This document shows, one piece after another, positions 41,542 through 62,206 of a stretch of DNA of 64,000 nt; the first letter of the stretch is position 1; each line of letters begins with the position of its first letter. This stretch comes from a virus. The position numbers and the translations under genes were made by a program. The stretch spans positions 1-64,000 of the IMG/VR virus record IMGVR_UViG_3300032323_000939, one strand, 5' to 3'. The notes under the pieces were generated by a model. It saw nothing but the letters and a program-made list of their open reading frames with translations, was not told the DNA's origin and searched no databases.

Positions 41542-43044
41542 TTAGTTCAAAGTCTTTTGACTTAGATCGATGACAATGAACTCTGCTGGGTATTGAAGAG
41601 CAACACCAACCTCTATGTGTACTTCTCCATTTGCAATTTGTTGTGCGTTATTGTTTTCATTATCGCACTTTACAAAGTAAGCCTGTGAAGCAGTTGCTCC
41701 ACGAAGACCGCCTTGATTACGGTATTCATTTAAGAATGAACCAAGACTTGTACGAATCTGTGCCCATAGACGCTCATCGTTATTTTCAAAGATTGCGAAT
41801 TCAGTAAGATTCTGTAGTTGCTTACGGATGTAGATTAATGAACGACGCATGTTTACATACTTGTTAGCAGTTCCATCTTGCTTCAAAGTACGAGCACCCA
41901 TCACTGAAAGACCAGCACCAGGAATCTGGCGAATTGGGTTTACTGGTGATGTGCTTGCGTTCATTGTGTCTAACTCAGTAGATGTGAATGACTTCTCAAC
42001 TGCAACAACTCCTAGTAATGAGGTTGTAATACCAGCAGGGGCTTTGAATACGCCTCTGTTAGCATCAGTTGTTAAGTACAAGCCAGTTACTGCACCTGCT
42101 GGGCCAATCTTACGAAGAGCGCCAGTTCCACGGCCAATTGGATCAGCAATGAAAACAGGTGGGTAGTAGACAGCGGCATGACTTGAGTCAGTTAAACTTC
42201 CCGCAAATGAAACAGCGTTAGCCACTGTTAAATCTGGATCAGTGTCAATAACTACAAATCCTTCATTGCTTTCAGCCCAAGATGTAGCAGCGTCAAATAC
42301 TGAAACTGTTCCAGAGGCTAGTGCGTTTGCTGCTGGTATAAACAGAACTAGTGCACGGTTTAAAGAGGATAGTCTTTCAAATACAGAAGAAGCAGTTCCC
42401 TTGTAAGCAGTGTAGTCAGTAGATGCTGTTGCAGTTCCATTAGATCCACCAGTTAGTGGATAGGTTGCTGAAACAATTGTTCCTGAAGTAGACGCACTGA
42501 TAGAGATGTTTGGTGAAACTAAGTTAATAACAGTCTCAGCAAAATCACTTGATGTTGGATCGTTAAATACAACATTCTCATAACGCTCCAGAAGAACGTC
42601 ATCAGTAATATCATTAGCAACACCTGACTCTTTGTAAAGAGTGAGTGTGTATGTGCTTGCAACACTACCTGCAGACACAACAACACGAAGGGTGTTGCCA
42701 TCTGTTCCTGCATTCTTTGAGGTTACAGTTGCAACTACTGCGCTTCCAGAAGTTAATAGATCTACTGAAGCAGCATCTGCATCACTTGCTAGTAGGCGTT
42801 GAACATATAGTTCACGTCCGCCATTAGCAAAGAAAGAGCCAACTTGGAAGGTGGCTGGATAGGAAGCGTTGTAGCCTCCAAAATTCTTAGTAAATTCATA
42901 CCAAGATGTAACAAGCGTTACTGATTCTGGGCCTTGTGCAAAAGGTGCAACAACTGCGCCAGCAGCATTTGCAGTAACTCCTGTTGGGAGTACTGCGGGT
43001 AGAAGGCGTTCACTGATGTAAACACCTGGACGGCTGTAAGCCAT
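41542..43044 (-). CDS. Tail sheath protein
   Basis: The 500-residue protein starts AYSRPGVYISERLLP, the normal opening of contractile sheath proteins, and ends with the conserved domain GLRGATASQAYFVKCDNENN and EVGVALQYPAEFIVIDL. Central beta domains (about 100-350) vary between phages. It shows that the virion is a myovirus. A good site, AGGAG, precedes ATG 43044. Confidence 0.95.
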   Translation of the reverse strand: MAYSRPGVYISERLLPAVLPTGVTANAAGAVVAPFAQGPESVTLVTSWYEFTKNFGGYNASYPATFQVGSFFANGGRELYVQRLLASDADAASVDLLTSGSAVVATVTSKNAGTDGNTLRVVVSAGSVASTYTLTLYKESGVANDITDDVLLERYENVVFNDPTSSDFAETVINLVSPNISISASTSGTIVSATYPLTGGSNGTATASTDYTAYKGTASSVFERLSSLNRALVLFIPAANALASGTVSVFDAATSWAESNEGFVVIDTDPDLTVANAVSFAGSLTDSSHAAVYYPPVFIADPIGRGTGALRKIGPAGAVTGLYLTTDANRGVFKAPAGITTSLLGVVAVEKSFTSTELDTMNASTSPVNPIRQIPGAGLSVMGARTLKQDGTANKYVNMRRSLIYIRKQLQNLTEFAIFENNDERLWAQIRTSLGSFLNEYRNQGGLRGATASQAYFVKCDNENNNAQQIANGEVHIEVGVALQYPAEFIVIDLSQKTLN

Positions 43045-43735: not shown

Positions 43736-44052
43736 TATCGGTTACCTAAATGTTTGGATGTTCGGCCAATTAAAAACTTTTCAGTTTCTTGTTGACGATT
43801 TTTAAACCGTCTAATGGCAGCGGTAGGTTGGGTGCTTGGAGTTCCGTACTCAAGGTCCATAGCCTCAGCACGATGACTCTTGTGCACGTTAACTGAGAAG
43901 GAGCCCTTGTTATGAGTCACATTTAATCCTCTTACAATATGAGATGGCCATCCAGAAGCCTGTGCTTCAGAACGAAGGTGGGCAGACATCATCCGTGTTG
44001 TTTCAACACTGGCTTTGTTTAGAGACTCTTTAAAGTTGTTTAGGTAGTTCAC
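43735..44052 (-). CDS. HK97 gp10-like neck / tail completion protein
   Basis: The 105-residue protein has a helical start (VETTRMMSAHLRSEA), a short beta part with FSVNVHKSHRAEAMDLEYGT and the STQPTAAIRRF motif, which follows HK97 gp10 families (E-GT....P-ff). It would complete the head-tail joint. It overlaps its upstream neighbour by ATGA. Confidence 0.68.
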   Translation of the reverse strand: MNYLNNFKESLNKASVETTRMMSAHLRSEAQASGWPSHIVRGLNVTHNKGSFSVNVHKSHRAEAMDLEYGTPSTQPTAAIRRFKNRQQETEKFLIGRTSKHLGNR

Positions 44053-44243
44053 TTCTTTTTCTTCGCCTTCGACACAACCCTTGCTGCACCTAACGCATAG
44101 GCGGCAGTAGTACCAAGTATTAAGGCTGCGACGGCAGGACGCTTTTCTTTAGGGCGGAAACCAAACACACCCTTTATAAACTCTTCACGTTCATTCTGGT
44201 TGTTCATTTCAGCAACTTGCTGATACCAAGGCTTATAAGCCAT
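44049..44243 (-). CDS. Small protein with one membrane helix (64 aa)
   Basis: It starts at ATG 44243 after an AAGGGG site. The N-terminal half is charged and residues about 38-56 (AVAALILGTTAAYALGAARV) form a predicted membrane helix followed by a lysine tail. This is the first gene after the terminator at 44323..44346, so a promoter should lie in 44244..44322, where a small inverted repeat (CACCGCAGCGGTG) is present but no convincing -35/-10 pair. Confidence 0.62.
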   Translation of the reverse strand: MAYKPWYQQVAEMNNQNEREEFIKGVFGFRPKEKRPAVAALILGTTAAYALGAARVVSKAKKKK

Positions 44244-44322
44244 AATAAATAACCCCTTTTTCGCAACCTGTGGGACAGTAGTCAGGCACCGCAGCGGTGT
44301 TCTGATACAGCAATGATAAATG

Positions 44323-44346
44323 AAAAAGCCCCCTAGTTGGGGGCTT
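44323..44346 (-). terminator. Rho-independent terminator at the end of the small-gene operon
   Basis: On the minus strand AAGCCCCC pairs with GGGGGCTT, eight base pairs around the loop AACTA, followed by a run of T. It lies nine bases after the 82-residue gene. It separates the small basic-protein operon from the tail genes. Confidence 0.9.
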
Positions 44347-44354
44347 AGTCATTA

Positions 44355-44603
44355 CTACTTTTTAAACTTCTTTTCTCTTTTGTCTTCAGCCTTCTCGCCC
44401 TTCTTACCTTCTTTGGCTTCGTGCTTCTTAGACATAGATTTAATCTTTTTTACGTTAGCAACATCCATCTTGCGGTCATCCTCTTGGGACTTAGGCTTGC
44501 GATGCTTCTTATCCATCTTTTCAAACTTAGCCTTTTCCTCTTTGTCAAGACCTTTAGTGGTCTTGGCATCCTGCTTCTTGTCGGAGGCCTTGGTGTACTT
44601 CAT
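44355..44603 (-). CDS. Highly charged lysine-rich protein (82 aa), last gene of the small operon
   Basis: About 40 percent of residues are Lys, with many Asp and Glu and no aromatic core, so the protein is probably disordered. The start ATG at 44603 overlaps the upstream TAA. It may bind nucleic acids or act as a packaged virion protein. No family is recognised. Confidence 0.68.
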   Translation of the reverse strand: MKYTKASDKKQDAKTTKGLDKEEKAKFEKMDKKHRKPKSQEDDRKMDVANVKKIKSMSKKHEAKEGKKGEKAEDKREKKFKK

Positions 44604-44740
44604 TACATGCCCTTCTTACGAGGAAGCATGTTTTTGGTTTTACCCTTTTTTAAGGCTTTAAAATCAGCGCCAGTAATTTTATTTGTTGGCTTTGCAGCAC
44701 TAGCAATCTTCATCTGCTTAGGTGTAAGGTCTTTCTTCAT
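44603..44740 (-). CDS. Small basic protein (45 aa)
   Basis: Read from the DNA: ATG 44740 to TAA 44603, TAATG at both ends. The product (MKKDLTPKQMKIASAAKPTN, then KITGADFKALKKGK) has the ITGADFKAL-K motif I associate with short proteins in other phage genomes. Its frame is open, start and stop are coupled to neighbours, and there is no other gene in this stretch. Confidence 0.72.
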   Translation of the reverse strand: MKKDLTPKQMKIASAAKPTNKITGADFKALKKGKTKNMLPRKKGM

Positions 44741-44805
44741 TATTTACCTTTCTGGCAAGTAGGGCACTTGCACTTGCAGTTCTTCATAGTGCATTTAAGG
44801 GCCAT
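44740..44805 (-). CDS. Cysteine-rich micropeptide (21 aa)
   Basis: Read from the DNA: ATG 44805 to TAA 44740. Five of 21 residues are Cys (positions 5, 10, 12, 14 and 17, core KNCKCKCPTCQK) and six are Lys. Both ends share bases with neighbouring starts and stops (TAATG), which supports translation. It could bind metal or nucleic acid. Very small, so existence as a peptide is not certain. Confidence 0.5.
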   Translation of the reverse strand: MALKCTMKNCKCKCPTCQKGK

Positions 44806-44921
44806 TATTTTTTGTCCTTTTTCTTATCTGTCTTCTTTTTAGCATACTTTTTGTTAGCAGCGGCTAGAGTCTTTTCTCCGTGTTTATCTTTTGGCTTCAT
44901 ACAGCCACAGGTAGCGCACAT
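44805..44921 (-). CDS. MCATCGC-type small protein, copy A (38 aa)
   Basis: Read from the DNA: ATG 44921 to TAA 44805. The N-terminus is MCATCGCMKPKDKHG, three cysteines in seven residues, and the rest is Ala/Lys-rich ending KKKTDKKKDKK. The next gene upstream starts with the same MCATCGC heptad, so the two are duplicates. The N-terminal knot looks like a metal-binding or Fe-S-like site. Confidence 0.7.
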   Translation of the reverse strand: MCATCGCMKPKDKHGEKTLAAANKKYAKKKTDKKKDKK

Positions 44922-45010
44922 TATTTACCCTTTGGCTTTGGTTTGGCTTTTGGACCCTTACCGAATCCTGGTTGACCTTTTTTCTTACCGCATCCACATG
45001 TTGCACACAT
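44921..45010 (-). CDS. MCATCGC-type small protein, copy B (29 aa)
   Basis: Read from the DNA: ATG 45010 to TAA 44921. The product begins MCATCGCGKKKGQPGFGKGP and ends in Lys/Pro repeats. It shares its first seven residues with copy A but has a Gly/Pro/Lys tail. The stop overlaps the next start. Confidence 0.66.
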   Translation of the reverse strand: MCATCGCGKKKGQPGFGKGPKAKPKPKGK

Positions 45011-45019
45011 TGGCTTTTC

Positions 45020-45256
45020 CTATCTATGTCTTGCCGTTTTTTTGGCAATTGATTTGGGTTGTTTTACAAACTGCTTTCCCTTGCTATTGCCTTCTGCTTT
45101 AGCACGGTTGGTCGCAGCCTTTTCTGAAGGAGTAAGAGTATCCCACGCTTTGTCTGGTAGGTAACGCTTTTTACCTTTAGATTCTTTGCCATCTGAAGTG
45201 CGCCATTTTTCATTGCCCCACTTCTTTAGGGATTGTTGTGATTTAGCAAGAGCCAT
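45020..45256 (-). CDS. DUF5872-like small basic protein (78 aa)
   Basis: Residues 15-70 contain KWRTSDGKESKGKKRYLPDK and AWDTLTPSEKAATNRAKAEG followed by KGKQFVKQP, the pattern of DUF5872-type proteins found in phages, large viruses and bacteria. It is basic and probably nucleic-acid- or virion-associated. Function unknown. Confidence 0.78.
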   Translation of the reverse strand: MALAKSQQSLKKWGNEKWRTSDGKESKGKKRYLPDKAWDTLTPSEKAATNRAKAEGNSKGKQFVKQPKSIAKKTARHR

Positions 45257-45453
45257 TACTTGTACCCTCCGCCTGCTTTCTTATATTCAGAAGCAAGAAG
45301 TTGAGCCTTACGAGCAGACCACTCTCCTGGATCTCCGCCTTTAGTTCCAGCCTTTATCTTCTTAAATAAACTCTTACGCATTCCAGGCTTGGTGTAATTA
45401 CCAGCCTCATTTACTTTTGACTTTGGTTTTGCTGCTGCTTTTTTTGCTGCCAC
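45256..45453 (-). CDS. Small basic protein, KPGMR...WSARKAQLLA family (66 aa)
   Basis: GTG at 45451..45453 follows GAAAGGAG and gives MAAKKAAAKPKSK, so it is preferred to 45501. The C-terminal KPGMRKSLFKKIKAGTKGGD followed by WSARKAQLLASEYKKAGGGY is a pattern I recognise from small proteins in many phages and bacteria. Its first 47 bases overlap the preceding gene in another frame. Confidence 0.74.
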   Translation of the reverse strand: MAAKKAAAKPKSKVNEAGNYTKPGMRKSLFKKIKAGTKGGDPGEWSARKAQLLASEYKKAGGGYK

Positions 45454-45547
45454 TTTTTGCTCCTTTCGATGCTGGTACACAGTTAGGCACTCTCTTGCCA
45501 TTCTTTATCTTAAAACCTTTTTGAACGTAACCTTCCCAACATGCCAT
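45407..45547 (-). CDS. MACWEGY small protein (46 aa)
   Basis: Read from the DNA: ATG 45547 to TGA 45407. The product MACWEGYVQKGFKIKNGKRV followed by PNCVPASKG matches the CW-x-GY...G-K-K-G-VPNCVP pattern common in cyanophage and other phage small proteins. The conserved pair of cysteines (3 and 23) may form a disulfide or bind metal. It overlaps the next gene by 47 bases; the start makes TAATG. Confidence 0.75.
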   Translation of the reverse strand: MACWEGYVQKGFKIKNGKRVPNCVPASKGAKSGSKKSSSKTKVKSK

Positions 45548-45777
45548 TACTTTTCCTTACCTTTATGGGGGTTGTTCTTGTGCCAATCCTTAACTGCTTT
45601 AACGCCCTGCTTAACTGTTTTAGATCCACCCTTTTTAGTTAGGTTTATCTTATCCCACTTACCTTGATCACCAGCGTGATCCACAATTACATCGCCTCTT
45701 TTATTCTTTTTAACAGTGTGCTTAGTGCCACCAGCCTTTAAAGTTTTTGGCTTCTCATCTTTCTTTTTGTTAACCAT
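45547..45777 (-). CDS. Small lysine-rich protein (76 aa)
   Basis: The product is Lys/Gly-rich with a central beta motif (KRGDVIVDHAGDQGKWDKIN) and a helix VKQGVKAVKDWHKNN. Start and stop each overlap neighbours. No function is assigned. Confidence 0.68.
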   Translation of the reverse strand: MVNKKKDEKPKTLKAGGTKHTVKKNKRGDVIVDHAGDQGKWDKINLTKKGGSKTVKQGVKAVKDWHKNNPHKGKEK

Positions 45778-45959
45778 CAGGCTACCGACTTCTTATGTTT
45801 GTAACGCATTGGGGCCTTTGGTCTTCTAATTACGCCACCTTTTTTTCGCTTTGGTTTAGCGCCACCAGACTCATATCTACTTTCAGCAATGTTTGTTTCA
45901 ACATTCTTCTGAGGCTGTTTACCAGCCCTTGCACCAATTCCTGAACGACGTTTCTTCAT
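45777..45959 (-). CDS. Small Arg/Lys-rich protein (60 aa)
   Basis: The product starts MKKRRSGIGARAGKQPQ and ends MRYKHKKSVA, with an overall strongly positive charge; probably disordered. It is TAATG-coupled to both neighbours. Confidence 0.64.
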   Translation of the reverse strand: MKKRRSGIGARAGKQPQKNVETNIAESRYESGGAKPKRKKGGVIRRPKAPMRYKHKKSVA

Positions 45960-46135
45960 TACTTACTCTTCTTTTTCTTAGACATTCCCGCTTCGCTCAT
46001 TGCAATAGCAATTGCTTGTTTCTTTGATTTAACTACTGGGCCTTTTTTAGAGCCGCTATGAAGTTTTCCTTCTTTGTACTCTTTCATAACCTTCTCTACC
46101 TTACCCTTTTTAACAGCACTTGCTTTCTTAGCCAT
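45959..46135 (-). CDS. DUF6496-like small basic protein (58 aa)
   Basis: Read from the DNA: ATG 46135 to TAA 45959. The sequence KVMKEYKEGKLHSGSKKGP followed by VVKSKKQAIAIAMSEAG closely follows the DUF6496 pattern (VM-EFK-G-L-SGS-KGP-VK-RKQAIAIALSEA) found in many bacteria and phages. Function is unknown. The start overlaps the stop of the acidic peptide. Confidence 0.85.
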   Translation of the reverse strand: MAKKASAVKKGKVEKVMKEYKEGKLHSGSKKGPVVKSKKQAIAIAMSEAGMSKKKKSK

Positions 46136-46254
46136 TATTCCTCTTCCTCTTCGAACTCTTCATCAAAGGCATGATCATCATACTCTTTGTCATAGAATAG
46201 TATCTCATCTTCTTCAAAGAGATCTGGATCTAATTCAGACTCAAAATCTTCCAC
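46135..46254 (-). CDS. Very acidic short protein (39 aa)
   Basis: Read from the DNA: GTG 46252..46254 to TAA 46135. About half of the residues are Asp or Glu, and the sequence ends FDEEFEEEEE. It starts a few bases after the fibre gene stop and opens the operon of strongly basic proteins, so a chaperone-like or charge-balancing role is conceivable. The GTG start lacks an obvious ribosome site. Confidence 0.55.
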   Translation of the reverse strand: MEDFESELDPDLFEEDEILFYDKEYDDHAFDEEFEEEEE

Positions 46255-46260
46255 AATTTA

Positions 46261-47463
46261 TTACACTGGAAACACTAGACTAGAAAGCCAAGCAGAGGTT
46301 GAGTCAGGGGTAACATTCCCATTAGTGTAAACAGTGATGTGCGTTAACTCAGAGGTGCCAAATTTTTGAGCAGGAATTACAACATCTACAGTTGGTCTAT
46401 ACTCAACTGGCAAATTAAACGCTGTAGAATTAGCAGTTCCACCAGATACATTTCCTCGTAAATAAACTACTCCATCTATTTTTTTATATGCTGGTGAGTT
46501 ACCTCCTGTATAACTATTGCTAAAAGAAGAAATTGAAATCCAACCAGAATCTGTAGTTGCACCAGAAGGACCCTGTGTGCCTTGAGTGCCCTGTGCACCA
46601 GTTCCACTAGCACCTTGTATACCGACTGTGCCTTGAATACCCTGTACTCCCTGAACGCCTTGTGCACCTTGTGCTACTGCGGAACCACTAAGTCCTTGAG
46701 CACCATTAAATCCTTGGACTCCTTGAGAGCCATCTCTACCCTGAACTCCTTGAGCGCCTAATGTTCCTTGAGTTCCTTGTAATCCTTGTACACCAATGTT
46801 TCCTCTTGTACCTTGAACTCCTTGTGCAGCAAATGCACCGTCTAATCCTTGAGTTCCTAGGGCACCTTGCACACCTTGAGTACCACGAGTTCCTTGTGTA
46901 CCTTGAATTCCATCATTACCAACGGTGCCCTGAATACCTTGTGCACCTTGTGCACCAACAGTTCCAGTTCTACCTTGAACACCCTGCGTCCCTTGGGAAC
47001 CAGTTGCACCTTGAGCGCCAGTTAATCCCTGTGCACCACGGGTGCCTTGCACACCTTGAGTTCCTGTAGCACCTTGTGTACCAGTATCGCCCTTAGTTCC
47101 TTGTACGCCTTGAGCGCCAGTAGATCCCTGCGTACCAAGTGCTCCTTGAGATCCAAGTGTGCCCTGTGCGCCAACAGTTCCTTGCGTGCCCTGTGAACCA
47201 GTCGCACCAGTAGATCCCTGTGTTCCTAACAATCCCTGTGTACCTTGTGATCCTGCAGTACCTGCAGTGCCTTGTGTACCTGCCCCAGTTGCACCACGAG
47301 AACCTTGTACACCAGTTCTACCTTGCACACCTTGCGGTCCTTGAATGCCTTGAAGAGTTGCGTCTGTTTCAATTCCTTGAACTCTTGTATTTAAATTATC
47401 TAATGCAGCATTTAAAGTAACATCCCAATTATTTGCACCTCTAACTGGCTTAACAAATGTCAT
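46261..47463 (-). CDS. Collagen-like tail fibre protein 1 (400 aa)
   Basis: Residues 1-38 are an attachment part (GANNWDVTLNAALDNLN). Residues about 39-302 are GXY triplets, mostly G-T-Q, G-V-Q or G-A-Q, with only two prolines at the ends. Residues 303-400 form a beta-rich tip (WISISSFSNSYTGGNSPAYK, DGVVYLRGNVSGG). Collagen-like triple helices in phage fibres give long rigid rods. The tip probably recognises the host. The repeats are also repetitive in the DNA, favouring slippage and length variation. Confidence 0.88.
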   Translation of the reverse strand: MTFVKPVRGANNWDVTLNAALDNLNTRVQGIETDATLQGIQGPQGVQGRTGVQGSRGATGAGTQGTAGTAGSQGTQGLLGTQGSTGATGSQGTQGTVGAQGTLGSQGALGTQGSTGAQGVQGTKGDTGTQGATGTQGVQGTRGAQGLTGAQGATGSQGTQGVQGRTGTVGAQGAQGIQGTVGNDGIQGTQGTRGTQGVQGALGTQGLDGAFAAQGVQGTRGNIGVQGLQGTQGTLGAQGVQGRDGSQGVQGFNGAQGLSGSAVAQGAQGVQGVQGIQGTVGIQGASGTGAQGTQGTQGPSGATTDSGWISISSFSNSYTGGNSPAYKKIDGVVYLRGNVSGGTANSTAFNLPVEYRPTVDVVIPAQKFGTSELTHITVYTNGNVTPDSTSAWLSSLVFPV

Positions 47464-48113: not shown

Positions 48114-48809
48114 TTAAGCCTTGCTATTCCAGTATAGGTTGTAGTAATCGGCGTTTAATTGGAACCTTTTTATGTGGGTTGCAATCGCTCCAGTATGGGC
48201 ATGCAAAGGAATTCCTACTTTTTTTAACTTTCTAAAAAAGGACACATCTTCACTTATAAACTCGTCCCCTACACCTACTTGTTCAGCAAACAACGATTCA
48301 TTCGGGTACTTATTTTTTAGTTTTTCAATAATTGATTTATGCATTAATACCAGTCCCATTCCAGCAGAATCGCATCTAATAACTTGGTTTTGTGGTAGTG
48401 GGTGAATAAACTCTACTTGAAAAGTATTTTCTTCAACATCGTTAAAAACAACTGGGTAAGGAACCATTAACGATCCATCTAATTCTTTTGATACAAAATA
48501 AACACCAGTTATAACTGGATGCGTATCTTTGTCTGCAACATCCCAAAGTTTTTGTAGTACATCAATTGTTACACAGATATCCGAGTCTACCCACAGTAAC
48601 CAATCACTCTTTAAAGTATTTGACCAATAATCAAAAAGAACTTGACGTTGCCTTCCTATTTGGTTTCCTTCAACACGAACTGAAGATGAAATATGTATTC
48701 CATTTTTAGGACCAGAAACTAGAGCACCTACAATTCCATCTGTAAATCTACCATCAGTTGTCCCATTATCGCACCAACCAATAGAGACTTTTTCATTGTT
48801 TTCTATCAT
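48114..48809 (-). CDS. GT-A glycosyltransferase
   Basis: The ATG at 48807..48809 follows the upstream stop by one base and is preferred over 48857. The 231-residue enzyme has SVRVEGNQIGRQRQVL and the DxD-type motif LLWVDSDICV near residue 77-86, followed by DSAGMGLVLMHKSIIEKL and GDEFISEDVSFFRKL, the acceptor region of inverting GT-A enzymes (ANP1/WaaE-like pattern). It may glycosylate virion fibres or host surface sugars. The other sugar genes lie at 51.8-54.6 kb. Confidence 0.8.
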   Translation of the reverse strand: MIENNEKVSIGWCDNGTTDGRFTDGIVGALVSGPKNGIHISSSVRVEGNQIGRQRQVLFDYWSNTLKSDWLLWVDSDICVTIDVLQKLWDVADKDTHPVITGVYFVSKELDGSLMVPYPVVFNDVEENTFQVEFIHPLPQNQVIRCDSAGMGLVLMHKSIIEKLKNKYPNESLFAEQVGVGDEFISEDVSFFRKLKKVGIPLHAHTGAIATHIKRFQLNADYYNLYWNSKA

Positions 48810-48810
48810 T

Positions 48811-49491
48811 TTAGTTGAACTCCTTACGAGTCCAAAACATTGTTTTATATTTATCAAAAAATTTTGTAACTAATATACTAGTTACTTTATTCTGTTCTTT
48901 TATTTCTTTTTCAAATCCTAGTTTTATTTGCCATTTGTCTCTTTTAAAAGGTATAACTTGTGCTATTGGAGTTCCTTTTGGAATGAGTCCTTCAAAGTTA
49001 GGATCATTAACAATAAAAGGAAAATTAACTGGAGCAGTATAAGTATCCGTATCTACAATTCCTGGAAGAATAGTAAATACTGCTTCTCTGTGCATTGGTT
49101 GGGTAAATAAAGTTGAATATCCTTTAGGAGTTTTAACAGCCCAAGGGTTCATCCATTTAGGATAAGCGTGTTGATTACGTGCTGGATGGTTAGGCGCTTG
49201 TTCAATTGGGTGGAAACTTATAAGCCCCAAAGAAGACCATTCAAAAAATTGAATACTTTCTTTAAGACTTACGTATACATCAGCAGGTGAAGTAATGATA
49301 TACCCAGCAGTTATAGCATCAAATACTGGTATACAACGTTTTATTGTAGCATCAGTAGCGCCTGCACCAGTTGGTTTTTTAATGTTGCCAATATAAGATT
49401 TAGTGTCTTTGTACCAATCTGGTGTAAATTTGGAAGCAGGTTGTGGCTGTTCTATGTCCACACCAGATGTGTTAGTAAATGTGATCTCCAT
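48811..49491 (-). CDS. Paralogue 3 of the dUTPase-like phage protein family
   Basis: The 226-residue protein matches the two copies near 26 kb in motif order: PASKFTPDWYKDTKSY, RCIPVFDAITAGY, TPKGYSTLFTQPMHREAVF, LPGIVDTDTYTAP and FEGLIPKGTPIAQVIPFKRD. The last resembles the dUTPase/dCTP deaminase loop G-x-x-IAQ. This copy is 22 kb away in the fibre region and is preceded by its own promoter (49526..49553), so it is expressed separately. Confidence 0.76.
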   Translation of the reverse strand: MEITFTNTSGVDIEQPQPASKFTPDWYKDTKSYIGNIKKPTGAGATDATIKRCIPVFDAITAGYIITSPADVYVSLKESIQFFEWSSLGLISFHPIEQAPNHPARNQHAYPKWMNPWAVKTPKGYSTLFTQPMHREAVFTILPGIVDTDTYTAPVNFPFIVNDPNFEGLIPKGTPIAQVIPFKRDKWQIKLGFEKEIKEQNKVTSILVTKFFDKYKTMFWTRKEFN

Positions 49492-53885: not shown

Positions 53886-54610
53886 ATAAGTGTACCTTTG
53901 AAGTATTTCATACCGATACGGGTAACTCACTTCGTAATCAATCTTACAATAATATCCTAGAGACAATGGCTGAGGTACCTAGACTTGGATCTCCTACCTA
54001 TTACTTAAACACAAAAGAAAAAGCAGAACAATACCTATCTCAAGAAGATGCAGTAAAAATAAACGTAGTTGAAGATTATGCCCAACCAGGGGAGACCTTC
54101 CCTCCTAGTTCTGGAGTAGTTGGAGTATGGGCTAGTAACTATGAGGCGTATAAAGCCTTCTTAGAGACTGATAAAGAGTACCTAATTATTTTTGAAGACG
54201 ATGTAGTACTTAGCAAGAATTTCTTGACGGTATTAGAAACTTATGTAAAGGAATTGCCATATGACTGGGATTTCTTTTCTTTCTTTGTTCCTGATGATTC
54301 TTTATTTGCATACACTCAAGAACATAATATTGGGCAATTATTTGTGTGTAGGTCATATCAGCAGTGGTCATGCGCTGGCTATATAGTCAGTAGGCAGGGT
54401 GCTGAGAATGTCTTACGTAAGGTAAGGAACCAAGGAGCCAGTGCCCCAATAGATTGGTTTATATTTAATTTTAGAATGAAGAAAGAGGATAACCAGCCAG
54501 TATTTGAGACCTACACTTTAAAGCCGCATGTGTATAAGCCAATTAAGTTTTTATTAGGCGCAGCACAGTACAGTCAAATACATAATGGCAGTACAGAAGT
54601 TATTGTTTAG
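53879..54610 (+). CDS. GT25-type glycosyltransferase
   Basis: The 243-residue protein shows GT25 motifs: [34 protein letters not shown] (the DxD-like EDD) and the [15 protein letters not shown] loop. GT25 enzymes include LPS beta-galactosyltransferases and collagen hydroxylysine galactosyltransferases. Its start (TTG or CTA-region after the methyltransferase) is at 53879, and its end overlaps the convergent collagen-like gene by four bases. Confidence 0.82.
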
Positions 54611-55893
54611 TAAATACCCATAACTATTTCTTCTGCAGTTACTGTACCTGTTGGAGCAGTTCCTGCTGTTCCTTGAGCACCCAAAGTTCCTTGTGTACCT
54701 TGCGAACCAATAGTTCCTTGAGTTCCAACACCAAGTGTTCCTTGCGTACCCTGTGCACCTGTAGCGCCTTGAGAACCTAATGCACCCTGAGAACCAACAG
54801 TTCCTTGAGCACCTGTGTTACCTAATGTTCCCTGTACTCCTTGGGTTCCTTGAGTACCCTGAACTCCTTGAGCGCCTAGTGTTCCTTGAACTCCTTGAGA
54901 TCCAACAGTTCCTTGTGAACCTTGTGCACCAGTTAATCCTTGAAGGCCTGTTGTAAAGAGAATTAATTCAATAGCATTATTGTTAGCAAATGAGTTATTT
55001 CCAGCGCCACCATCACCTGTTCTTGTTACTGGAATCTTTACATAACTATTTGTTACAACAGTTACAGCGCCAGTTACTTCATAAGTAATGTAGATATTTG
55101 AATCGGCTTTTTCTTGGATAATGATGTTGTCGTACTGCTTAACAAGTCCTAGATAGACGTCAATATCAACAGCACTGTCATTGATGTGGTCTACGTAGAG
55201 GAAGGTTGCAGATGTCTGCGTTGTGTTATTCCAACGAAGTTTTCCTGCACCTGGACGAGCATCTGCTGTTGTTGTATCAGCCTTGTAGTTAAAGTTAGAG
55301 GTAGAACCACCATTTAAACCAGCAGTACCTTGAACACCCTGTGCACCGTCTACGCCCTGTGTACCTTGAACGCCTTGAACTCCTTGTGTTCCTTGTATAC
55401 CTTGAACGCCTTGAGTACCATCAGTTCCTTGTGTGCCCTGAGTTCCCTGAGTTCCCTGAGTACCCTGAGTACCTTGAGTTCCTTGAATAGAAAGACTCTG
55501 TACACCTTGGGTTCCTTGGATGCCTTGAGTTCCTTGTGTACCTTGGGTGCCCTGTACTCCTTGTGCACCGTCTACACCTTGAGTGCCCTGTGTACCTTGG
55601 GTTCCTTGAGAACCAGTTTCTCCCTGTACACCTTGTAAACCCTGTACTCCTTGAACGCCCTGTAATCCTTGAACACCCTGCAAACCTTGAACGCCTTGAA
55701 CTCCTTGAACTCCTTGAACTCCCTGAATACCCTGTAATCCACCATAGGCTAAACCAGCCCAGTCAGATGTTCCGTTACCAACTTTAAATTTACCAGTGTC
55801 TGTCTCTGTTCCTACTTCACCAGCAGCAAGCGTTGGATTATTAGCAGTCCATTGAGCCGCAGTACCACGACGTAGTTTGATTGTTACTGACAT
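54607..55893 (-). CDS. Collagen-like tail fibre protein 2 (428 aa)
   Basis: Residues 1-51 ([40 protein letters not shown]) are the attachment domain common on phage fibres. Collagen blocks cover about 52-196 and 317-411, almost all G-x-Q triplets without proline, with one break (VQSLSIQG). Between them a beta module at 197-315 ([19 protein letters not shown]) resembles the modules of fibre 3. The end is a short SEEIV-like tail. It faces the GT25 gene, its possible modifier. Confidence 0.88.
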
Positions 55894-56179: not shown

Positions 56180-59098
56180 TTAGGCTTTAACTACTACTCT
56201 ATAGGTCTCACCTGATGCAGGAGCAACTGCGAATCCAATTGCAACTCGGTTAACAGTTGATTTTGTAACATCGGTTACTACCTCTTGAGCAGTTGCGATA
56301 TCCCAGACAGTTACAAGAATATCTGTGGTGTTTAAGTTGTGATCGATATTAAAGGATGTTGCAGAGTATGGACTTACTGGAGTAATGGTCTCTGCGTAAG
56401 ATCCAAGTTGACCAGAGATACCTTGAGCACCCTCTGTTCCTTGGGCGCCAGTAGTTCCTTGAGTACCTTCCGTACCTTGGGCTCCAGTTGTACCTTGTAC
56501 ACCAGTAGCACCATCTAGGTTGATAGACCAAACAGCGTATGTTCCAGAACCTCTAACGTCATTGACGTTTACAACGAGTGTGTTAGTTCCTGATGTGTAA
56601 CTGACTACAGTTGCAGACATGTTGTTGTTTACATCGTAAGCAACTACTACATCTTGACCTACTGAGTATGAAAGATTTGGATCAGCCAGTACAAAACTTA
56701 CGTTGTTTGCTACTGCAATTGAACGTGATGTTGTAGAGGTTGTCTTGTAGCGATCAGATAGTCCTTCTGTACCTTGAGCACCCTCTGTACCTTGGACGCC
56801 TTGAGTACCGTTTGTACCCTGAGTTCCTTGTGATCCTTCAGTTCCTTGTGATCCTTCAGTTCCTTGTGATCCTTCAGTTCCTTGGGCACCGACAGTACCT
56901 TGAGTACCTTCAGTTCCTTGAGAACCTAAAGTACCTTGTACGCCTTGTGCAGCAAGTAATGTCCAGAATGTTCCTTCTGAAGGAGTATCTCCAACATTTC
57001 CACCATTAGCATTTTTGCGGTACCAAGTCTGTCCTTGGTAAGTTGCTACATCGCCAACTGCATATGGTAGTCCTGGGTTATAAGCGCCAGTAAAGTTCCA
57101 AAGTGCCGCTGTACCTTGAGTACCTTGCGTTCCTTCAGTACCCTGAGATCCAACTGTTCCCTGGGCTCCTTCAGTACCTTGCGCTCCTTCAGAACCTTGT
57201 ACGCCCTGCGTACCTTGGGTTCCTTGAACTCCCTGTGTACCTTCAACACCCTGTACTCCTTGAGTACCCTGTGTGCCTTGGGCTCCAAGTGTTCCCTGTG
57301 TACCTTGAGAACCAACGGTACCTTGTACACCCTGTGCACCAGTTGTACCTTGAGCACCAGTATCACCCTTGTCACCGACTCGTGCAAAAGTTAAGTAGGT
57401 GTTGTCATTGTTATCAAGTGCTAGTGGTCCCGATACGTATGCAACTGGAACTGTAAAGTAAGCACCAGCATTTTCATTATGAGTTCCAATAATCTGGAAG
57501 AATGCATAGTTAAGAGGATCAGTAATATCTGTTACTTTAATTGTTCCCTTGATGCCTGATGTTGAGTCATCAATAGTTTGAAGGAATGATGTAATGTTAA
57601 CTGCATTTGCATCGATATTATCAATGTAAAGTTCAGTTACAGATGAAAATGTTGTAGAGTCAAACTTGTAGTTACCTGCAGTTGGATCTGTATCTGCGGT
57701 ATTAGTTAGGTAATTGTACTCAAATGTTTCTCCACCAAATGTACCTGTAGCACCTTGTGTACCTTCAGTACCCTGGGTACCTTCTGCACCCTGAGTTCCT
57801 TGAGTACCTTGGGCTCCTTCAGATCCTTGTAGACCTTGAGTACCTTGGGTTCCTTGAGTACCTTGAGCACCGAGAGTTCCTTGTACGCCCTGTGTTCCCT
57901 GTGTACCTTGGACTCCTTGAGTTCCTTCGGTTCCTTGTGTTCCTTGAGCGCCTTCGGTTCCCTGGGCACCTTCAGTTCCTTGTGTACCATCAGTACCTTG
58001 CGTACCTTCTGTACCTTGAGATCCTACTGTGCCTTGAGTACCTTGTGCTCCTTCTACGCCTTGTACACCCTGTGTTCCCTGAGTTCCCTGTGCGCCAAGA
58101 GTTCCTTGTGTTCCCTGTGAACCAACGGTTCCCTGTACGCCCTGGGCTCCTTCAGTACCTTGTGTACCTTGAGCACCAACATCACCTGTACGTGCAAATG
58201 TAAAGAGTAAATCATCTCCATCAGTAAATGTTCCATTACCAGAAACATAAGCAACTTCTACATCAAACCAATTTGGTGCTGTGTCTGTAACACCAGCAAT
58301 TGTGTAAAGTGCAAAAGTAGCGGTATCAAATTTCTTAGATACCTTTACGTGACCCTTGATAGTAGAAGTTGAATCATCAATTGTCTGTAAGAAGTTAGAG
58401 ACGTCATAGTTACCATCAGCAGGATTATCATCTAATGCAATGCGTGTAACTAGAGTTAAATTGGCATTATTTAGACGAGCATTGTTGTCGCCTGGATCTG
58501 CCATTGTAGTAGTGTCATCATAAATATACGCAACTGTGATACCACCAAAGTTACCTTCAGCACCCTGAACACCTTGCGATCCTTCAAGACCTTGAGCACC
58601 AATTGTGCCTTGTGTGCCTTGCGCTCCTTCTGCTCCTTGAGTTCCTTGAGTTCCTTCGGAACCTTGTACGCCTTGCGCTCCTTCAGAACCCTGTACTCCT
58701 TGAGTACCTTCGGTTCCCTGCGTTCCTTCGGTTCCCTGTGTACCGTTAGATCCATCAAGACCCTGAGCACCATCAAGTCCTTGTGCTCCAGCAGTTCCCT
58801 GAGTTCCTTGAGAACCAAGTGTGCCTTGAGTGCCTTGTGAACCTACAGTTCCTTGTACTCCTTGTACTCCTTGTGCACCAGTAGTACCTTGGGTACCCTG
58901 TGCTCCAGTAGTTCCTTGTGCACCAGTGCTGCTATTAATCCATGCAGAGCCGTTCCAAGTGCGTAGAAAACCTAGTACTGTGTCAAAATAGATTTGGCCA
59001 ACAACAGGAGATCCTGGGGCCTCGGCTAAATTTTGTATTCTTGCATTTAGTAATTCTAATTTAGTTAAATCAATCGGGGTTAAAAACTTACGTGCCAT
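56180..59098 (-). CDS. Collagen-like tail fibre protein 3, modular (972 aa)
   Basis: Residues 1-58 form an attachment domain ([20 protein letters not shown]). Four or more GXQ/GXE collagen blocks alternate with beta modules: two related modules with [18 protein letters not shown] and [18 protein letters not shown], a ChtBD3/CBM5-like module ([18 protein letters not shown]), and a module with [18 protein letters not shown]. The end ([20 protein letters not shown]) is a standard fibre tip. Prolines are nearly absent from the repeats. It is the largest fibre, with clear ribosome site AAGGAG before ATG 59098. Confidence 0.9.
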
Positions 59099-61078: not shown

Positions 61079-62206
61079 TTAGTTTGTGTAAACCTTGACG
61101 ATTGCTTGGTCTGTAATTACACCAAGACCCCAGATTGCGTACCATGCAAGAGCATGCTCACGACCGAAGTCAAGAACACCACCATCACGTAGTTCAACTG
61201 GTAGAGAGATTGCGTGACCAAAAGCGTTGTCACCAATCATGATAGATTCGTAAACTTCAGCACCGTTACCAGTTGCTGATGTTAAGTAACCTGCTTCTGC
61301 TGTGAAGTTAGCAGACTCTGGGTTACCACCGCTTCCTGGGGCTGTGTTAGCCTTAACAGGAGCATTCCAATAATCAGTTGGTACACCAACAGATGTTGAA
61401 GTTGTGTAAGAAGCGTTAATTGCTAACTTCTTAACCTGAGTTGTTTCGATGAATACTACGTCGTATAGACGACCGATTTCACCTAGCATGAAGTTACCTG
61501 GAGCAGCGTACTTCGTAACTTCGATGAACTCTGGGTTCGAACGAATATCACGAGATTGCTTTGGATGTACGAATTGTACGTATGTCTCACCTAAGCGAGG
61601 AATGTTCTTTCCTGCAAGAGTAAGAGCAGCATCCTTTACAGCACCAGTTGATAACTTGAAGTTACCATCTAGATCTGAAATTTGTGTTGCTTTTGTACCT
61701 TCGTTGTACCAGTCGTTAACACCTTGTACTGATGAACGGTCATAACCGAACACTGCAGAAGTTGCTGCAGACAGTGTGTTACGTGCTTGTAGATCTAGGT
61801 ATTGCGCCATGTGGCGACCTAGAAGACGTGACGCAGATGCCATAACGTCATCAAATGATGCGTTAAGTAATAGTTCAGAAACTGCTACTGCGTAGCCGTG
61901 CTCTGCAACTGTAATTGCAATCTGCTCTGCTGTTAATGCAGAAGTTGTCATACGAACACCCTCTGTAAGAGGTGTTGGATCGACAGCGAAGTTCTTGTAG
62001 CGTAGGAAGTTAACACGGAGACCAGGTGCTACACCTAGTTCTGTCTTCTTAACTGCAAATTGTTCGAATCGAAGAATTGGCATTGCCTGGAACAAAATTT
62101 CTTTTGACCAGATTGTTTGAATCGCTTGATTCAGGCTTGAGTTCGAGCCTGAGTAAGCGGTTGGGGCGGAAGCGAGTTGCCCTGTACCTGTAATTGCACT
62201 TGCCAT
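61079..62206 (-). CDS. Major capsid protein (HK97 fold, N4 gp56-like)
   Basis: The 375-residue protein shows the N4 gp56-like pattern: IQTIWSKEILFQAMPILRFEQ, LRYKNFAVDPTPLTEGV, EHGYAVAVSELLLNASFDDV, FVHPKQSRDIRSNPEFIEV and MLGEIGRLYDVVFIETTQV. It builds the icosahedral head. It follows the scaffold gene by 35 bases and starts at ATG 62206. Confidence 0.93.
   Translation of the reverse strand: MASAITGTGQLASAPTAYSGSNSSLNQAIQTIWSKEILFQAMPILRFEQFAVKKTELGVAPGLRVNFLRYKNFAVDPTPLTEGVRMTTSALTAEQIAITVAEHGYAVAVSELLLNASFDDVMASASRLLGRHMAQYLDLQARNTLSAATSAVFGYDRSSVQGVNDWYNEGTKATQISDLDGNFKLSTGAVKDAALTLAGKNIPRLGETYVQFVHPKQSRDIRSNPEFIEVTKYAAPGNFMLGEIGRLYDVVFIETTQVKKLAINASYTTSTSVGVPTDYWNAPVKANTAPGSGGNPESANFTAEAGYLTSATGNGAEVYESIMIGDNAFGHAISLPVELRDGGVLDFGREHALAWYAIWGLGVITDQAIVKVYTN

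Follow-up and report, generated by a model that had tools for sequence, protein, structure and literature searches.

Twelve tiny, translation-coupled genes form a conserved operon in the structural region of a freshwater phage and share modules with virion proteins of other phages

The window analysed here comprises bases 1–64000 of the 95.5 kb viral record IMGVR_UViG_3300032323_000939 (IMG/VR), which represents a freshwater phage of the contractile tail type. Its minus strand carries, from position 46254 to 44355, twelve consecutive short open reading frames (ORFs), designated g01 to g12, which occupy 1.9 kb and encode products of 21–82 residues. The operon is flanked on the same strand by a collagen-like fibre gene (46261–47463) on one side and by pre-sheath genes on the other. 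The first product is very acidic, with an isoelectric point (pI) of 4.1, and the remaining eleven are basic (pI 9.4–11.6). The genes and the terminator following them are listed below, in part with the ratio of nonsynonymous to synonymous substitutions (dN/dS), the number of loci or relatives, or the strength of the Shine-Dalgarno (SD) sequence.

46135..46254, minus strand: g01, first gene of the operon, GTG start; acidic protein of 39 amino acids (aa), pI 4.1, net charge −21; dN/dS 0.13 (other frames 4.3 and 2.6)
45959..46135, minus strand: g02, 58 aa, DUF6496 (PF20106; E 2.9e-9, 37.6 bits); dN/dS 0.07
45777..45959, minus strand: g03, 60 aa, basic, no family; 47 loci; dN/dS 0.10
45547..45777, minus strand: g04, 76 aa, basic, no curated family, predicted fold of three strands and a helix; 198 relatives in viral contigs
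45407..45547, minus strand: g05, 46 aa, CWEGY motif (CWxGYxxxGxKxKNGKxVPNCVP), with matches within larger phage proteins; dN/dS 0.21
45256..45453, minus strand: g06, 65 aa, N-terminal half of a DUF5872-like domain (phrog_17747), GTG start inside g05, fused in relatives; dN/dS 0.06
45020..45256, minus strand: g07, 78 aa, C-terminal half of a DUF5872-like domain (phrog_14910); SD −10 kcal/mol
44921..45010, minus strand: g08, 29 aa, Cys/Lys-rich peptide beginning MCATCGCGKKK; 26 loci; dN/dS 0.08
44805..44921, minus strand: g09, 38 aa, Cys/Lys-rich peptide beginning MCATCGCMKPKDKHG; 50 loci; dN/dS 0.09
44740..44805, minus strand: g10, 21 aa, five cysteines; 27 loci; dN/dS 0.08
44603..44740, minus strand: g11, 45 aa, basic; 59 loci; dN/dS 0.09
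44355..44603, minus strand: g12, last gene of the operon, 82 aa, Lys-rich (35% Lys); 48 loci; dN/dS 0.06
44326..44346, minus strand: intrinsic terminator at the operon end; z −5.0; the stem varies yet pairs in relatives

An earlier note, drawn up from the sequence alone, had proposed at least twelve tiny genes between 46254 and 44355, ending in a strong terminator, and had asked whether the frames are conserved in related phages. All twelve are borne out by homologues, in-frame purifying selection, SD sites and gene order, and the terminator is real as well (AAGCCCCC-AACTA-GGGGGCTT-TTTCATTT at 44346–44326). Each of the 12 frames has homologues in related viral contigs. In gap-free pairs of 75–97% identity, dN/dS amounts to 0.06–0.21 in frame as compared to 0.9–6.1 when the two alternative frames of these pairs are used, and third codon positions take 59–75% of the changes. 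Pairing with the anti-SD sequence reaches −4 kcal/mol or better at 10 of 12 starts (mean −5.2), as compared to 25% of the region's 79 other start triplets. The SD sequence of a gene is often supplied by Lys, Gly and Glu codons at the end of the preceding gene, as exemplified by GAAGAGGAAGAGGAATAATG at the g01/g02 junction. The frames are small and of low complexity, as would be expected if they were open by chance in a lysine-rich (A-rich) stretch. However, the frame controls already refute this explanation, and the SD sites and the conserved order speak against it too, leaving it a negligible probability.

For g06, the start codon is placed at the GTG at 45453 instead of the ATG at 45501, given that the match to phrog_17747 begins only with residue 21 when the longer frame is read, that the GTG has the SD sequence AAAGGAG (−8.2 kcal/mol) and that relatives use this start. 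Thus, g06 overlaps g05 by 47 bases.

Exactly one base is shared between stop and start codon at nine of the eleven junctions (eight TAATG, one TGATG), confirming the coupling noticed earlier; the two remaining junctions are the g05/g06 overlap and a 9-base gap between g07 and g08. The TAATG/TGATG pentamers occur 11 times, as compared to a mean of 4.1 and a maximum of 13 in shuffled sequences, which makes their frequency weak proof of genes when taken alone. One-base overlaps are also present elsewhere in the same phage. Among related contigs, 300 of 426 neighbouring pairs share exactly one base. Moreover, the order g01-g02-g03-g04-[g05-g06-g07]-g08-g09-g10-g11-g12-terminator-g13 is kept in dozens of contigs, as the earlier note had suggested to check, with single genes or blocks being absent or swapped. 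The replacing genes are further tiny basic ones, namely DUF6321 (PF19846, E 5.9e-26), which 10 loci place between g04 and g05, and a 58-aa 'RPYPN' protein located after g04. Unlike these relatives, which hold DUF6321 within the tiny-gene operon, the phage studied here has a stand-alone DUF6321 gene outside the window (positions 69746–69964 of the record, within bases 69737–70024, minus strand; L087 5737–6024), at most 2.5 kb upstream of the terminase gene. In one related contig, L127, an endonuclease VII-like gene (PF02945, E 3.3e-19), perhaps a mobile element, is inserted in the operon between g04 and g09. The twelve genes represent a conserved unit in the structural region, and the proposal that they act together is well supported by the conserved order, by the coupling and by the fusion of these modules into single proteins in other genomes.

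With respect to families, g02 is a clear member of DUF6496 (37.6 bits versus a cut-off of 24), a family without known function, and had been labelled correctly. The CWEGY label of g05 describes a recurrent motif; it does not correspond to a Pfam family. DUF5872 (PF19197) holds only for g06 and g07 read jointly. Individually, g06 matches phrog_17747 (1.6e-34) and g07 matches phrog_14910 (5.2e-37). When joined, they cover DUF5872 profile positions 4–103 of 116 across the junction, with 21.9 bits and E 2.9e-4, which is below the Pfam cut-off of 27.5 bits. A natural fusion of both halves exists in Synechococcus phage S-CRES1 (gp97), and in an alignment led by this fusion both halves are in one frame in 74 of 80 loci, a figure that does not give the natural frequency because a fused query favours fused forms. 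Of the fused members, 45 of 64 match DUF5872 at E ≤ 0.1 (best E 4.2e-8), and the fused form is predicted to be mainly helical, with a predicted local distance difference test score (pLDDT) of 91.5 and a predicted template modelling score (pTM) of 0.61. Loci retrieved with g07 contain 83 split pairs, and in 68 of them the two genes overlap by exactly one base. Hence, g06 and g07 are two halves of one DUF5872-like domain, encoded by two coupled genes in the window as compared to one gene in the fused lineage. At least 591 viral stretches contain relatives of g07, which also occurs in isolated phages, namely pelagiphages, HMO-2011, roseophages and Methylophilales phages. Cultured phages with g06/g07 genes include MEP401/402, HTVC033P and HMO-2011, whereas the search yielded no isolate that carries the complete operon. 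DUF5872 has also been reported in the algal virus CpV-BQ1 (PMC12085832).

For g04, structure prediction yielded a pLDDT of 81 and a pTM of 0.68. Homologues of g04 were not found in genome contigs, and g02 and g04 had no match in isolated phages. A relation of g04 to Pur-alpha was considered and not used, as the fold matches had E values near 1 or worse. The listed homologues of g01 share a short [LI]x[PV][DS]LF sequence near the N terminus, which resembles a short linear binding motif. A speculative role for the acidic g01 would be to balance its basic partners or to act as their chaperone.

Several of the modules recur joined to one another in larger phage proteins. CWEGY and DUF6321 co-occur in phrog_727, phrog_10346 and phrog_28131, and a protein of ~490 aa (L175) contains DUF5872 and DUF6321 together. 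In L212, DUF3721-like and DUF5872-like sequences are joined, each scoring slightly under its own cut-off, and in L214 a DUF5872-like sequence is joined to a module shared with phrog_220 ('minor head protein and DNA pilot'). ORFs bearing the latter module directly precede g06 in 31 loci. By the usual reasoning for fused genes, the presence of these modules in single proteins suggests that they act in one process. DUF6321 itself occurs in 476 isolated-phage records. It forms the C terminus of a long protein in cyanophages S-CREM2 and S-SCSM1, whereas in S-CREM1 (L261 1709–3255) it is a separate gene near the terminase gene, directly following ORF178 (ORF178-ORF179), indicating fission or fusion among cyanophages.

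Proteins carrying CWEGY and DUF6321 are found in virions of other phages. In the virion proteome of S-CREM2, 52 of 219 ORFs were detected in CsCl-purified particles (PMC10665884 Table 3). Both the sole CWEGY carrier, ORF160 (128342–129235; 7 unique peptides), and the sole DUF6321 carrier, ORF137 (108049–109521; 4 unique peptides), were detected. For S-SCSM1, mass spectrometry identified 45 virion proteins (PMC9602691). The only CWEGY match and the only DUF6321 match of this phage are both ORF29, which is encoded shortly before the terminase and annotated as 'virion protein', a label that, judging from the paper and the record, appears to reflect mass-spectrometric detection. These cyanophage proteins resemble the operon in carrying CWEGY and/or DUF6321. 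They differ in holding the modules within one protein of 300–520 aa as compared to separate tiny genes, with S-CREM1 representing an intermediate state. In addition, CWEGY is carried by HSTV-1 gp13 ('head maturation protease'), encoded directly before the capsid gene, by RcZahn gp18, located between the capsid protease and the major capsid protein, and by HRTV-4 gp37, located two genes before the major capsid protein.

The genomic context of the operon is likewise structural. The genes for the tail sheath (41542–43044; phrog_23, E 1.5e-47) and the major head protein (61079–62206; E 2.7e-62) lie on the same minus strand as the operon, and so does the large terminase gene in L087. The earlier note had also considered a role in early host takeover. 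Early expression was rejected, as the operon is situated on the same strand within the head-tail cluster, between the collagen-like fibre gene and the tail sheath gene, and as no promoter-like site was found directly upstream of it. Moreover, homologues in isolated phages lie beside terminase, lysozyme or portal genes, as observed for g07 in several of the phages mentioned above. Further genes of the cluster, all on the minus strand, include three large collagen-like tail fibre genes with GxQG repeats (46261–47463, 54607–55893 and 56180–59098) and a glycosyltransferase-like gene among the tail genes (48114–48857; phrog_34859, E 4.4e-98). Matches of g07 in metagenome-assembled genomes number three, two of which are actinobacterial, and the tail sheath is nearest to Streptomyces phages; an actinobacterial host is only a guess.

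What could such an array of tiny proteins do? The explanation we favour, and in which we place about even confidence, is that the operon is a late, translation-coupled array whose small basic products serve inside the head, in a role comparable to that of the internal proteins IPI-III of phage T4. According to this model, a late polycistron would give rise to very small proteins in fixed order, one acidic followed by eleven basic, through coupled translation in which the codons at gene ends provide the next SD sequence and stop and start codons overlap. Several products would be stand-alone forms of modules that are fused into long virion- or prohead-associated proteins in other tailed viruses. 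They may enter the prohead, perhaps through the scaffold, would then lie alongside the packaged DNA, and may be ejected together with this DNA. We infer packaging, DNA binding and ejection of the stand-alone proteins, as well as their role there. T4 IPI-III are small, basic, present in ~360 copies each and poorly conserved between relatives; they are scaffold-interacting proteins that become packaged in the head, show DNA binding at low salt and are ejected (PMC9026906). The operon products are alike in being small and, in 11 of 12 cases, strongly basic. They differ in being encoded by 12 genes of 21–82 codons in one coupled unit and in sharing modules with haloviruses and cyanophages. No head-annotated PHROG matched any of the ten operon proteins scanned, Pfam likewise gave no similarity of the operon proteins to annotated head proteins, and a direct comparison with IPI-III was not made; we file them as small basic phage proteins and not as members of the T4 internal protein family.

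Several points weigh against a location in the head. The link to packaging is drawn from the proteomes of other phages, and not from this phage or a close relative, and no virion evidence was found for the families of g01–g04 and g08–g12. The detection of three carriers in two phages, a small sample, has a chance of ~0.009 if detection were random; the true figure is weaker, since the prior is raised by the position of the carriers within the structural region or close to it. CsCl preparations may contain contaminants, and in the long carriers the module need not be what brings the protein into the particle. A further cyanophage protein with CWEGY is annotated as cytidyltransferase; NMNAT-like enzymes of the cytidyltransferase kind have repeatedly been found in cyanophage virions (PMC9602691). 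Finally, neither sequence nor fold searches found solved structures resembling the two predicted folds (g04 and fused g06+g07). The earlier proposal of packaged DNA-binding proteins therefore stands in part: packaging gains indirect support from the CWEGY and DUF6321 proteins in cyanophage virion proteomes and from CWEGY just upstream of major capsid genes, whereas for DNA binding charge is the only basis, the two predicted folds matching no solved nucleic-acid-binding structure.

The late structural location, the high charge and the strong conservation would equally suit proteins that act unpackaged in the late infected cell, where they might bind nucleic acid or assembly intermediates, that is condense replicated DNA or chaperone head or tail assembly, and remain behind at lysis. 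Nothing here places the stand-alone forms in particles, as this account would have it; however, the presence of CWEGY and DUF6321 proteins in virion proteomes and of CWEGY in proteins encoded just upstream of the major capsid protein speaks against it, and we regard it as rather unlikely. A bank of counter-defence or host-takeover proteins, i.e. a variable small-gene locus under arms-race selection, would account for single genes being present or absent between relatives and for the endonuclease VII-like insertion in L127, and T4 IPI provides the precedent of a packaged basic protein that inhibits restriction (PMC9026906). Yet purifying selection is very strong (dN/dS near 0.1) and g07 occurs in phages whose hosts are unrelated, which sets the operon apart from typical anti-defence genes with their fast change; together with the late location and the maintenance of one array, this renders such a function improbable. 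That the Cys-rich peptides g08–g10 are metal or thiol carriers with the basic proteins as their partners appears very improbable: their MCATCGC and CxxxxCxCxCxxC patterns are conserved, but no metal-binding family matches them and just 3 of 12 genes would be accounted for. Returning to a function in the head interior, a bolder version, which we offer tentatively, views the operon as a multi-domain head protein that is 'exploded' into its parts. Interchangeable modules of the capsid interior would be made as twelve peptides in controlled ratios by coupled translation, to form a nucleoprotein filling of the head, and the same modules would be domains of long prohead or virion proteins in cyanophages, haloviruses and perhaps algal giant viruses.

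Beyond the operon, a conserved leader (44244–44320, minus strand) is present between the terminator and g13 (44049–44243). It has two hairpins, and compensatory changes are seen in both stems, P1 (CACCG/CGGTG, AACCG/CGGTT, CTCCG/CGGAG, TACCG/CGGTA) and P2 (CAGT/ACTG, CTGT/ACAG, GCAG/CTGC, GTAGT/ACTAC). A CCC loop is invariant and a TTGCGA..AAAGGGG sequence is conserved, the GGGG of the latter being the likely SD sequence of g13, so that a pseudoknot could hide the SD. The leader has no match in Rfam. Its core is found in 84 viral stretches, and the downstream peptide is g13 in 36 of 36 readable cases. This leader is a candidate for a new cis-regulatory RNA.

DUF6496, DUF5872 and DUF6321 are known by name and without function, and no paper naming DUF6496 or DUF6321 was present in the literature searched, in which DUF5872 was named by a single paper. 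Within the same literature, the array of twelve coupled genes, the division of DUF5872 over two genes and the connection of the modules with virion proteins appear undescribed. The operon illustrates that conserved phage genes of 21–46 codons exist, which size cut-offs would miss, and adds a case in which fusion and fission connect tiny genes with long virion proteins. Aquatic viruses very commonly carry DUF5872-like and DUF6321 modules, for which the literature searched contains no functional study. These modules are now tied to each other as well as to virion proteins and one compact operon, which makes their function directly testable.

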